From Mucilaginibacter sp. dw_454 (lineage in GTDB: Bacteria > Bacteroidota > Bacteroidia > Sphingobacteriales > Sphingobacteriaceae), in NCBI RefSeq assembly GCF_018449775.1, contig NZ_JAAVVB010000006.1, positions 186,001-250,000 on the forward strand: a stretch of DNA of 64,000 nt. Direction: 5' to 3'. Below are positions 8,373 to 13,282 of this stretch, one piece after another. Position 1 is the stretch's first letter. Each line of letters begins with the position of its first letter. The notes below the pieces were generated by a model. It ran no database searches and was not told where the DNA came from. It worked only from the letters and a program-made list of their open reading frames with translations. Position numbers and translations under genes: made by a program.

Positions 8373-9155
8373 CTACAATGCTTTCACAAACTCCGCCATC
8401 GCCGCACCCGGGTCAGTCTCTTTCATGAAATTCTCGCCAATCAAAAATCCATTAAAGCCTGCCTTCTTCAATCCTTTAATCGTGTCAGGGTTACTAATAG
8501 CGCTTTCAGAAATTTTCATAAACTCAGCCGGGATATGTTCGGCCAATTTGTAAGAAGTTTCTACAGATACCGTAAAATCTGCCAGGTTGCGGTTATTAAC
8601 GCCGATGGCATCCAGGTTAGGATTGATACTGCGCTCCAACTCTTCTAGGTTATGCACCTCTAGCAACACATTCAGACCCAAGCTTTTTGCCAGTTTGGCC
8701 AGCGTGTCAATTTCCTGCGGAGTGAGTATGGCGGCGATTAACAGAATAATATCGGCACCTAAAGATTTGGCCTCAACTACCTGGAACTCATCAATCATAA
8801 AATCCTTACGCAAAATGGGGATCTGGTTTGCCTGGCGTGCTTTAAACAAGTCGGTTTTAGTACCCATAAAGAAATCCTTGTCCGTTAATACAGACAAAGC
8901 CGAAGCGCCCGCAGCGGCATAACCACTGGTTACTGCTTCTACACCTACCTGGTCGTTAATAATCCCTTTAGATGGCGAGCGACGCTTGAACTCGGCAATG
9001 ATGCCGGTACGGTTTGGCGCAGTTAAAAATTCTTTAAAAGAGTACGTCGGCACAGAAAATAATGCCGACGACTCTAGCTCTTTTATACTGGTATCTCTTT
9101 TGGCCGAAGCAACTTCGGCCCTTTTATTCAATACAATTTTATCGAGGATATTCAT
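8373..9155 (-). CDS. trpC: Indole-3-glycerol-phosphate synthase
   Basis: A single TIM barrel of 260 aa with the family motifs IAEFKRRSPSKG (substrate phosphate and catalytic Lys), VLTDKDFFMG, ILRKDFMIDEFQV, LLEVHNLEEL, IGVNNRNLADF and SESAISNPDTI. It makes indole-3-glycerol phosphate in tryptophan synthesis. ATG 9155 gives the usual MNILDKIV start; an upstream in-frame start would add only four residues. It is the last gene of trpE-trpG-trpC here, 37 bp after trpG. It is not fused to trpF. Confidence 0.96.
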   Translation of the reverse strand: MNILDKIVLNKRAEVASAKRDTSIKELESSALFSVPTYSFKEFLTAPNRTGIIAEFKRRSPSKGIINDQVGVEAVTSGYAAAGASALSVLTDKDFFMGTKTDLFKARQANQIPILRKDFMIDEFQVVEAKSLGADIILLIAAILTPQEIDTLAKLAKSLGLNVLLEVHNLEELERSINPNLDAIGVNNRNLADFTVSVETSYKLAEHIPAEFMKISESAISNPDTIKGLKKAGFNGFLIGENFMKETDPGAAMAEFVKAL

Positions 9156-9192
9156 AAGCCTGCCCACAGCGCGCGGGCGGTGGGGTGTTTTT

Positions 9193-9819
9193 TTAGTTGT
9201 ATACGATCTTATTAACGTCGGCTAAATTACCACTTTTTGATTCATCGCCAGCTAACCAATTTTTCATCATTTCTTTGCCAAATTCGGTCAAAATAGATTC
9301 CGGGTGAAACTGCACCCCGCGTACATCGTAAGTAGTATGACGTAGCGCCATCACTGAATTATCTGTTTCATCTATAGCGGTCACAGTCAATACCTCTGGC
9401 ATTGATTTTTCATCAACTACCCATGAATGGTAACGGCCTACTTTAAACTCATGTGGCAAGCCTAAAAACAAGCGCTCGGTATCGTCAGTTACCGCAATTG
9501 GCGTAGCAATGCCGTGCATAGGCTGCTTTAAATTATATAAGGTACCGCCAAACACCTCGGCAATAGCTTGCTGACCAAGGCACACCCCAAAAATGCTTTT
9601 GGTTGGGGCGTATCTTTCAATCACTTTTAATAGTAAACCGGCTTCTGAAGGAATACCCGGACCAGGTGACAGGATGATCTTGTCGTAAGCGTCAACGTCC
9701 TCTAATTTAAATTGGTCGTTTCTCCAAACATCACATTGCAGGCCAATTTCATTTACAAGATGTACAAGATTGTACGTGAACGAATCGTAGTTGTCGATAA
9801 TTAAAATTTTATTTGCCAT
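9193..9819 (-). CDS. trpG: Anthranilate synthase component II (glutamine amidotransferase)
   Basis: A class I amidotransferase of 208 aa. The catalytic triad is visible: Cys80 in GVCLGQQ, His172 and Glu174 in VQFHPES. The oxyanion-type motif LSPGPGIP is at 50-57. It supplies ammonia from glutamine to TrpE. In some bacteria the same subunit serves PabB. It is 92 bp downstream of trpE on the same strand. The C-terminal extension after residue 190 (GDESKSGNLADVNKIVYN) is a little longer than usual. Confidence 0.95.
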   Translation of the reverse strand: MANKILIIDNYDSFTYNLVHLVNEIGLQCDVWRNDQFKLEDVDAYDKIILSPGPGIPSEAGLLLKVIERYAPTKSIFGVCLGQQAIAEVFGGTLYNLKQPMHGIATPIAVTDDTERLFLGLPHEFKVGRYHSWVVDEKSMPEVLTVTAIDETDNSVMALRHTTYDVRGVQFHPESILTEFGKEMMKNWLAGDESKSGNLADVNKIVYN

Positions 9820-9911: not shown

Positions 9912-11321
9912 TTACAATGTCTCTGCCAATTCTATAGCTCTGCGCAAGGCAGCAATTTTGTTATTTACCTCATTTAGTTCGCTTTCTGCAACAGATCCGG
10001 CTACAATACCGGCACCTGCCTGGTAATGCAGCGTGTTGTTTTTACTTAAAAACGAGCGGATCATGATGGCGTGATTAAAATCGCCATTAAAGCCTAAGTA
10101 ACCTATGGCGCCGCTGTAAAAGCTGCGTTTAATGTTCTCGTTTGCGTCTATGAGCTCCATAGCGCGGTATTTTGGCGCACCACTTAACGTACCAGCCGGG
10201 AAAGTATCGGCTACCACTTTAAAAGTAGGTACATCAGGCAGCAGCTCGCCACTTACCATGGATACCAGGTGAATTAAATGCGAATAGTATTGCACCTCTT
10301 TAAAAGCTTTCACCTCTACATGGTCGCAATGGCGGCTCAGATCATTCCGGGCCAGGTCCACCAGCATCACGTGCTCGGCAGACTCTTTCGGATCGTTTTT
10401 TAAGCTGTAAGCCAGTTCTGCGTCTTTCTCGTCGTCGCCGGTACGTTTGAAGGTTCCTGCAATTGGATAAATAGTAGCGCGACGATTCTTGATGGTGATC
10501 TGTGCTTCTGGCGATGATCCAAAGATCCTGAAATTACCATAATCGAAATAAAACAAATAGGGCGAAGGATTAATAGAGCGCAAAGCGCGATATACATTAA
10601 ACTCGTCACCCGTAAACTCTTTGGAGAAAGCCCTTGATGGAACAATCTGGAAAACATCGCCACGGTAAACATGCGTTTTCATTTTCTCTACAATCGCAAT
10701 AAAATCCTCGTCTTTCAGATTTGATTTTTCTTCTGATTTACTTTGGAAAGAGTATTCAGGGAAGTTTTTATTCTTTATCAAGTCATGGATCTTGTCAAGT
10801 CCTGCAGTATCATTATCGCCCTCTGGCTGATTATGAAAGATGTATAACTCGTTTTTAAAGTGATCTATCGCTATGATATAACGGTAGATGTTGTACTGCA
10901 TCACCGGAATCTTGCGGGTAGTATCATCACTTTTTTTCAGGCGGATGGTTTCAAAATGTTCCACAGCCTCATGCGTGAAATAGCCAAATAAACCGTTGGC
11001 GGTAATTTTTACCGGCGGCGCATTGGTTTCAAAACTGTCCAGAAAATCGGTAATCTGCGAGATTAGCTCAAAGTTTCCCGGCTCTAAAGTTTCTTCACTG
11101 CCATCTGGAAAACGTTTGTTGAGCTGCCCGTCGTTCAGGGTAAGGCTTGCAATTGGGTCGCAGCATACATAGCTGGTGCTGTTTTCGCGGCTGTGGTAAT
11201 CAGAACTCTCCAGTAATAGTGAGTTAGGGAAAACATCTCTTAAGCGCAAGTATACGCTTACCGGGGTAGTAGTGTCGGCAAGCTGCTGTTTGTAAGTGGT
11301 ATTAATCTTATATTTTTTCAT
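9912..11321 (-). CDS. trpE: Anthranilate synthase component I
   Basis: A chorismate-binding enzyme of 469 aa. The N-terminal third carries LLESSDYHSRENSTSYV, the region of the tryptophan feedback site (LLES element). The C-terminal domain has GDVFQIVPSRAF, FGSSPEAQ, YPIAGTFKRTGD, EHVMLVDLARND, TFPAGTLSGAPK and GAIGYLGFNGD, the conserved active-site set. It converts chorismate to anthranilate with TrpG. A leader peptide gene with tandem Trp codons and a terminator hairpin lie directly upstream, so expression is probably controlled by attenuation as well as by feedback. Confidence 0.96.
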   Translation of the reverse strand: MKKYKINTTYKQQLADTTTPVSVYLRLRDVFPNSLLLESSDYHSRENSTSYVCCDPIASLTLNDGQLNKRFPDGSEETLEPGNFELISQITDFLDSFETNAPPVKITANGLFGYFTHEAVEHFETIRLKKSDDTTRKIPVMQYNIYRYIIAIDHFKNELYIFHNQPEGDNDTAGLDKIHDLIKNKNFPEYSFQSKSEEKSNLKDEDFIAIVEKMKTHVYRGDVFQIVPSRAFSKEFTGDEFNVYRALRSINPSPYLFYFDYGNFRIFGSSPEAQITIKNRRATIYPIAGTFKRTGDDEKDAELAYSLKNDPKESAEHVMLVDLARNDLSRHCDHVEVKAFKEVQYYSHLIHLVSMVSGELLPDVPTFKVVADTFPAGTLSGAPKYRAMELIDANENIKRSFYSGAIGYLGFNGDFNHAIMIRSFLSKNNTLHYQAGAGIVAGSVAESELNEVNNKIAALRRAIELAETL

Positions 11322-11345: not shown

Positions 11346-11384
11346 AAAACAAAAGACCCGGCGAATGAGGGTCGCCGGGTCTTT
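11346..11384 (-). terminator. Attenuator terminator in the trpE leader
   Basis: On the minus strand AAAGACCCGGCGA pairs perfectly with TCGCCGGGTCTTT (13 bp stem, 11352-11364 with 11372-11384, 7-base loop), followed by a T-rich run. It lies between the leader peptide stop and trpE, 25 bp before the trpE start, where a transcription attenuator is expected. The leader also holds a GCCGG segment (11431-11435) that could pair with CCGGC of the 5' arm as a weak antiterminator. Confidence 0.88.
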
Positions 11385-11417
11385 GTATTAGGTTTACAAT
11401 TGATTAGTCTCTAATGG

Positions 11418-11483
11418 TCAAAAAGATAGCCGGCTGCCAATTAAATGGTGCCACCAGCTTTTGTTATTTCCTTTTTTGATCAT
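11418..11483 (-). CDS. trpL: Trp operon leader peptide with tandem Trp codons
   Basis: A 21-codon frame, ATG at 11483 and TGA at 11418-11420. It begins MIKKGNNKSWWHHLIG, with two adjacent TGG codons at positions 10 and 11, and ends at a stop 34 bp before the attenuator stem. Trp is rare, and a WW pair in a short frame upstream of trpE with an intrinsic terminator is the classical mark of ribosome-mediated attenuation. The likely promoter ends only 8 bp before the ATG, so the message would have almost no 5' untranslated region. It is too short for automatic gene calling. Confidence 0.85.
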   Translation of the reverse strand: MIKKGNNKSWWHHLIGSRLSF

Positions 11484-11491
11484 TGTGGACG

Positions 11492-11521
11492 CAAATTTAT
11501 AAAGAAAATTGAATTAGCAAA
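11492..11521 (-). promoter_or_regulatory. Promoter of the trp leader and trpEGC
   Basis: The minus strand shows TTTG (11518-11521), an 18-bp spacer and TAAATTTG (11492-11499), an exact match to the Bacteroidota -33/-7 consensus. Transcription would start within a few bases of the leader ATG at 11483. Confidence 0.65.
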
Positions 11522-11544: not shown

Positions 11545-11982
11545 TTATTTAAAGATGGAAATTTTGCCGGCAGCTAAAGCGCCAATAATTATTAGCAGCG
11601 CAAGGCTATAAAACAGCGCAATTATTCTGTGCTTGGCCTCAGGTAATACCAATTTCTTAGATTTGCTATGCCCTACGGTGATTACCGCTATGGCAATAAT
11701 CATCATCACCCAATGCTCAACCGTAAAGTAACGCGTGGTCGGATCTTTCATGGTAGTACTGTTAAAAGCCACCAGCGGACTTAAAAAGTATAACACAATA
11801 CCAATTAACAATTGAGTATGCGCCGAGATCATGGCAAACAAATTTACCAATCTGTTACCATTAGTATAAGGCCGGGTACCCAGCCAGCCCACAAAGGCCG
11901 ACACAATGGCGTAAATAAAAAGAATGAGAACAATGTACCTGAAACCCGAGTGCAGGTGCTGTACGATGCTGTATGCGTTCAT
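11545..11982 (-). CDS. Four-helix membrane protein, possibly cytochrome b-like
   Basis: A 145-aa protein with four hydrophobic segments (about 12-33, 46-70, 86-104, 118-140). Histidines lie at helix ends (HLHSGFRY near the N-terminus, SAHTQLL, EHWVMM, VGHSK), a pattern that could bind heme, and such proteins in this family are often named cytochrome B, though that is not proven. It is an inner-membrane protein. It has no operon partner: it is upstream of and parallel to the trp leader with its stop 24 bp from the trp promoter. Confidence 0.75.
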   Translation of the reverse strand: MNAYSIVQHLHSGFRYIVLILFIYAIVSAFVGWLGTRPYTNGNRLVNLFAMISAHTQLLIGIVLYFLSPLVAFNSTTMKDPTTRYFTVEHWVMMIIAIAVITVGHSKSKKLVLPEAKHRIIALFYSLALLIIIGALAAGKISIFK

Positions 11983-13073: not shown

Positions 13074-13170
13074 ATTGCGAATTAACGATGATTGTGGTGG
13101 CGGTGGTACTTTATCCCGCTTTTTTTACATTAACAGTACCAAAGCAGGTTAAATGCTGATAATTTAAAAT

Positions 13171-13260
13171 TCCCCTCTTGAGAGGGGGCGCTAGGTAGTG
13201 CGGCTGCAGGGGTGTGTTAAACGTGCGAAAGGACACCTCCCACCCCTCTCAAGAGGGGAA
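13171..13260. repeat. Intergenic repeat family C, copy 1
   Basis: A palindromic tract flanked by TTCCCCTCTTGAGAGGGGG and CCCCTCTCAAGAGGGGAA, with GGCTGCAGGGGTGTGTTAA inside. Related tracts are at 58731-58816 and 63516-63635. It lies between the yceI and porin genes. Confidence 0.75.
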
Positions 13261-13282
13261 TCGCACAGGCCTTACCCTCTCT

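Follow-up and report, generated by a model that had tools for sequence, protein, structure and literature searches.

A conserved leader upstream of trpE in Mucilaginibacter with the features of a ribosome-mediated attenuator and a predicted near-leaderless start

Organization of the trpEGC locus

The window analysed here, a stretch of 64,000 nucleotides from the soil bacterium Mucilaginibacter sp. dw_454, carries on its minus strand a complete trp leader followed by trpE, trpG and trpC (Table 1; coordinates read from the window). The initial annotation had described a 21-codon frame with two adjacent Trp codons, its stop codon, a 13-bp terminator with a T-run and trpE in the classical order, and this arrangement was confirmed by the coordinates, by folding and by its recurrence in relatives. 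The terminator lies between the leader ORF and the first structural gene, the position characteristic of an attenuator. Equally confirmed was the annotated promoter, in which TTTG and TAAATTTG are separated by 18 bp and TAAATTTG ends 8 bp before the leader ATG (11483-11481).

Table 1. Features of the trp leader and the downstream genes (window coordinates)
Feature	Position	Strand	Basis
-33 element TTTG, sigma-A-type Bacteroidota promoter	11518..11521	-	Sequence; TTTG or near match at the equivalent spot in the upstream stretches of relatives
-7 element TAAATTTG (TAnnTTTG)	11492..11499	-	Sequence; present in 92/96 leaders of relatives
Leader ORF, 21 codons + TGA (11420-11418), peptide MIKKGNNKSWWHHLIGSRLSF*	11418..11483	-	Conserved WW/WWW/WLW frame
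Tandem Trp codons TGG TGG (sensor)	11451..11456	-	Invariant in alignment A1
Segment 1, CUGGUGGCACCA, partner of segment 2	11446..11457	-	Inner-stem covariation
Segment 2, GCAGCCGGC, partner of segment 1 or of segment 3 (antiterminator)	11429..11437	-	RNA kept in three reading frames; swap test
Outer stem 3' arm, UUUUUGACCAU, pairing with AUGAUCAAAAA over the leader start codon	11414..11424	-	A1 pairing, double changes
Conserved box CAAUUGUAAACCUAAUA, 3' of the leader ORF and 5' of the terminator	11386..11402	-	Near-invariant in A1 (Mucilaginibacter); unpaired in the model
Segment 3, ACCCGGCGA, terminator 5' arm; core also partner of segment 2	11372..11380	-	Core CCGGC invariant, 3' arm variable
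Segment 4, UCGCCGGGU, terminator 3' arm	11356..11364	-	95% of terminator cells paired
Intrinsic terminator, stem AAAGACCCGGCGA/TCGCCGGGTCTTT of 13 bp, 7-nt loop, U-run	11351..11384	-	Folding, sequence
trpE, anthranilate synthase component I (ATG 11321)	9912..11321	-	Pfam PF04715, PF00425 (Anth_synt_I_N, Chorismate_bind)
trpG, anthranilate synthase glutamine amidotransferase	9193..9819	-	Pfam PF00117 (class-I glutamine amidotransferase) and position adjoining trpE
trpC, indole-3-glycerol phosphate synthase (IGPS)	8373..9167	-	Pfam PF00218

Folding of the leader RNA gives -46.7 kcal/mol, compared with -30.3 +/- 4.0 kcal/mol for dinucleotide-shuffled sequences (z -4.1, 0/200). In the 64-kb window, WW occurs in six ATG frames of 8-45 codons, and only that of the trp leader has a TAnnTTTG box 4-14 nt 5' of its ATG. 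Since the same combination was found again upstream of trpE in relatives, the leader architecture is not a product of chance.

Conservation of the leader reading frame

The closest relatives of the window's trpE belong to Mucilaginibacter. Stretches upstream of trpE, read at 80 + 30 loci of close trpE relatives, yielded 96 distinct leaders, all of which contain an ATG frame with paired Trp codons (WW, WWW or WLW); the conservation check proposed with the initial annotation was thereby passed. The first Trp codon is preceded by 7-10 codons, nine in 81 of the 96 leaders. Twenty further Bacteroidia genomes, from other families, were also read; a Trp-codon leader precedes trpE in 16 of them and was not seen in the remaining four. 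Leaders of the same RNA type in a close neighbour, genus g104 (L148 and L149), contain a single Trp codon at the sensor position (NNNWQS or NNNWRS), and tandem codons are therefore not universal.

Among the 96 leaders, the reading frame is kept up to and including WW, but not after it. The RNA string GCAGCCGG 3' of WW is conserved while the frame shifts through all three possibilities: GCCGG is read in frames 0, 2 and 1 in 50, 19 and 8 leaders, respectively, and the resulting peptides end in ...LAAG, ...WQPD or ...GSR. Retention of GCCGG in all three frames implies that it is selected as RNA. The pattern indicates that the codons up to WW are under selection as codons and segment 2 as RNA, a split that is needed for ribosome-mediated attenuation, and the conservation of this short ORF and its cluster of Trp codons ahead of the trp genes suggests that it is translated. 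In most leaders, segment 2 begins 22-27 nt past the first UGG; in those with WLW, the distance is 33 nt. The stop codon usually follows 1-23 nt past segment 2; in some relatives, the stop lies 19-23 nt past it, so that masking of segment 2 by a terminating ribosome would be partial there.

Alternative pairings in the leader RNA

An alignment of 38 Mucilaginibacter leaders (A1) was used to assess a 27-pair structure. The pairs are standard in 89.5% of cases; eight of them have both sides changed, compared with 3.8 expected from shuffles (0/500), and the number of cells with double changes is 19, against 5.1 in shuffles (0/500), which supplies the compensatory stem changes that the initial annotation had proposed to look for. 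In the inner stem (1:2), all three pairs are changed on both sides and 98% of the cells are paired, with the Trp-codon hairpin occurring in the variants CCA/UGG, CUA/UAG, UCU/AGA and CCG/CGG. The outer stem joins AUGAUCAAAA, at the beginning of the leader ORF, to UUUUUGAUCAU, 3' of segment 2; 78% of its cells are paired, three of its ten pairs show double changes, and its second arm is retained even where it falls outside the reading frame. When formed, the outer stem would hide the leader AUG and may thereby have a regulatory role. The terminator is invariant at CCGGC in its 5' arm and tolerates wobble and mismatches in its 3' arm; such invariance is to be expected of an arm that pairs with both segment 2 and segment 4.

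The pairing with segment 2, the 2:3 antiterminator, had been annotated as weak and possible. The GCCGG/CCGGC pairing itself stands, but 'merely possible' understates it, given its near-invariance within the genus and the co-variation of its counterparts between genera. Within Mucilaginibacter, GCCGG of segment 2 and CCGGC of segment 3 are so nearly invariant that covariation is uninformative, and exchanging segments inside the genus gave 4236/20000 permutations as good as the native combination. As the antiterminator is seen only weakly in single-species folds, segments were swapped across genera. Between genera, the two segments change in a matched manner (UCGG with CCGA, ACGUCGGG with CCCGACGU, UUGCGAC with GUCGCA). 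Across 18 genera, native combinations reached -13.8 kcal/mol compared with -11.4 kcal/mol for swapped ones, with 2 of 20000 permutations as good; random choice of representatives gave 0 to 33 of 20000, and 16 leaders from other families gave 1/20000. These permutations correct incompletely for shared ancestry. The native swap delta of -2.39 is lost in the controls, which gave -0.04 for shuffled segment 2, -0.19 for the spacer and -0.33 for the N-terminal coding part. Within genus g3, segments 2, 3 and 4 all differ between leaders L166 and L165, in a matched manner, and L164, with a change in segment 2 alone, looks like an intermediate. These three leaders and L078 from Pedobacter form a natural series for the evolution of the antiterminator, including apparent intermediates with the segment 2 change alone. 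Covariation and the swap test together yield 1:2, 2:3 and 3:4 pairings that exclude one another, as in an attenuator. Counting against this reading, the antiterminator comprises only about 5 bp (plus GG:CC), compared with the 13 bp of the terminator, and depends on kinetics. The box CAAUUGUAAACC was also considered as a part of the antiterminator and dropped, its pairing order being not nested and its complementarity not kept.

These results bear on a quite different reading, in which a constitutive terminator after the short ORF would release a small leaderless mRNA, or its peptide, acting in trans, with attenuation of trpE secondary. The terminated RNA would indeed be a small near-leaderless mRNA encoding the conserved N-terminus, and rnTrpL/peTrpL of Sinorhizobium meliloti provides a precedent (PMC7298713). 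However, the peptide after WW is not conserved and its frame changes among species, and the antiterminator co-variation requires a switch in cis; although both roles could coexist, we consider this reading very improbable.

Promoter position and the near-leaderless start

In 92 of the 96 leaders, the gap between the end of the TAnnTTTG box and the leader ATG is 6-13 nt, and exactly 8 nt (the mode) in 56 of them, so that the annotated promoter position holds among relatives as well; by comparison, of the 46 ORFs of at least 150 aa in the window, only 1 is preceded by such a box at a distance of 4-13 nt from its ATG. Where a box is recognizable in other genera of Sphingobacteriaceae, the gap is mostly 5-10 nt. 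In Flavobacterium psychrophilum, the -7 box lies at -12 to -5 (PMC9723704), and combined with the 8-nt gap, this position predicts a 5'UTR of about 4 nt. The leader message would thus be near-leaderless, provided that the start-site spacing follows that of Flavobacterium. Alternatively, attenuation could operate from a promoter further upstream, with a normal 5'UTR. Such an arrangement would accord with the 18-nt gap between the -7 box and the ATG in the Flavobacteriaceae-type leader L197 and with the low share of leaderless mRNAs in F. psychrophilum (5.5%; PMC9723704), but it leaves unexplained both the closeness of the box to the ATG in nearly all leaders and the additional -33 TTTG at 18-bp spacing, and we regard it as unlikely.

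Regulatory model

Taken together, the conserved Trp-codon frame, the promoter spacing, the 1:2 hairpin, the 2:3 co-variation and the 3:4 terminator make it very likely, at the level of comparative sequence evidence, that the leader is a ribosome-mediated transcription attenuator for trpEGC, as the initial annotation had proposed. Transcription from the sigma-A-type promoter would produce a message with its 5' end about 4 nt before the leader AUG, and a ribosome initiating at this near-5'-terminal AUG would translate MIK...WWH. When Trp-tRNA is scarce, the ribosome would stall on the tandem UGG codons and cover segment 1; segment 2 (GCCGG), about 20 nt downstream, would be left free to pair with segment 3 (CCGGC), preventing the terminator and allowing transcription of trpEGC. 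With ample Trp-tRNA, the ribosome would reach the stop codon next to segment 2 and cover that segment, whereupon the 3:4 terminator would form and transcription would end. If no ribosome has been loaded, the 1:2 hairpin and the AUG-hiding outer stem are expected to form and, with them, the terminator.

A structured leader with a terminator upstream of trpE could in principle also be a ligand-binding riboswitch, a T-box or a TRAP-type protein-binding leader. However, no Rfam family reached its gathering score in the window, the leader matched neither a T-box nor a riboswitch at E<=10, neither TRAP (PF02081) nor the Trp repressor TrpR (PF01371) was found in the genome, and what is conserved is an apparently translated frame of Trp codons rather than an aptamer; we therefore consider regulation of this kind extremely improbable, and the genome likewise offers no sign of a TrpR-repressed operon. 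The Rfam matches obtained on the leader at permissive thresholds were to sRNA only and chance-like.

A second leader upstream of trpD

The Trp leaders already described in Bacteroidota go by the name Bacteroid-trp RNA (Rfam RF01692; Weinberg 2010, PMC2864571; in F. psychrophilum, PMC6414381), and attenuation by leader peptides has been reported ahead of amino-acid operons in F. psychrophilum (PMC9723704). The RF01692 model (cut-off 49 bits) did not match the trpE leader of the window even at E<=10, and the leader is accordingly not a member of that family. The model's sole match in the genome, at 43.4 bits and below the Rfam cut-off, is located upstream of trpD. The same holds among the sampled members of the genus: in all 38 Mucilaginibacter genomes with a match (41 searched), the top-scoring match is found 27-156 nt 5' of trpD, separate from the trpE locus, and only one of the 38 passes the cut-off. 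The trpD leader L142 (G000:C1:1137588-1137703, minus strand) encodes MIAKISNNWWWLND, followed by a GGCAA/UUGCC arrangement, a terminator and trpD-trpF-trpB. The trp pathway is thus split, and each half has its own attenuator of a distinct sequence type, the one at trpD being RF01692-like. In a different family of Bacteroidia, RF01692 was also detected ahead of trpE (L146, L147).

A covariance model built from the trpE leader (R1) picks up leaders that RF01692 misses: it finds them ahead of trpE throughout Sphingobacteriaceae, and its best matches outside the genus, down to E of about 2e-7, coincided with the trpE positions in a comparison by eye. The model weakly touches the trpD leader in some genomes of genus g3 (G180, G237), which hints at a distant common origin of the trpE and trpD leaders. 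Four low-scoring R1 matches elsewhere in the genome (E of about 4e-4 to 0.09) looked on reading like ordinary terminators after or between genes rather than attenuators.

Comparison with known attenuators

We conclude that the trpE leader is very probably a real attenuator of ordinary mechanism, and not the first case in Bacteroidota, in which trp attenuation was already known. The trpL attenuator of Escherichia coli combines tandem Trp codons, a stop codon near segment 2, alternative 1:2, 2:3 and 3:4 pairings and a terminator before trpE, all of which recur in the Mucilaginibacter leader. The latter differs in its predicted near-leaderless ORF, the extra outer stem over the start codon, the shorter antiterminator and the lack of a detected TrpR. 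The initial annotation had likewise set the layout apart from the enteric model, and rightly so, although a precedent exists in S. meliloti, where a leaderless trpL attenuator acts on trpE and trpDC is separate (PMC7298713). The Mucilaginibacter leader resembles it as an attenuator on trpE with split trp genes and, by prediction, in being near-leaderless, but is unrelated in sequence and is accompanied by an attenuator on the second trp operon. In Corynebacterium diphtheriae, candidate attenuators have been described for both of its two trp operons (PMC1262725); that bacterium belongs to another phylum and its sequences are different, whereas the two Mucilaginibacter leaders represent two different sequence types. 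Bacteroid-trp RNA likewise combines adjacent Trp codons with hairpins and a terminator in a Bacteroidota leader upstream of trp genes, but the trpE leader differs from it in sequence, in having WW rather than WWW and in the shorter gap between the -7 element and the ATG.

The trpE leader is a version without an Rfam family, prior descriptions having been looked for in open-licence PMC papers. Its unusual points are the predicted near-leaderlessness, the stem able to sequester the leader start codon and the dual control. It offers a well-conserved, testable attenuator whose leader AUG is predicted to lie nearly at the 5' terminus, in a phylum without Shine-Dalgarno sequences, and would allow asking directly how leaderless initiation stays in step with RNA polymerase. 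We tentatively suggest, as a speculative extension, a family-wide Sphingobacteriaceae attenuator with timed 70S initiation on a 5'-terminal AUG, in which the outer stem would capture the AUG after RNA polymerase has passed, so that only promptly loaded ribosomes would sense Trp, and which would be one of two sequence-distinct attenuators separately tuning the trpEGC and trpDFB halves of the pathway. Two attenuators on a split pathway make the regulon divisible while each half keeps its Trp sensing.

Other features near the locus

Immediately upstream of the trp leader, the window encodes a small membrane-like protein of 145 aa without a Pfam match (11545-11982, minus strand), and a similar protein is encoded ahead of trpE in the Pedobacter loci L066, L067 and L153. 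An intergenic inverted repeat, CCCCTCTTGAGAGGGG...CCCCTCTCAAGAGGGG, at 13165-13262 looks like a small mobile or REP-like element.
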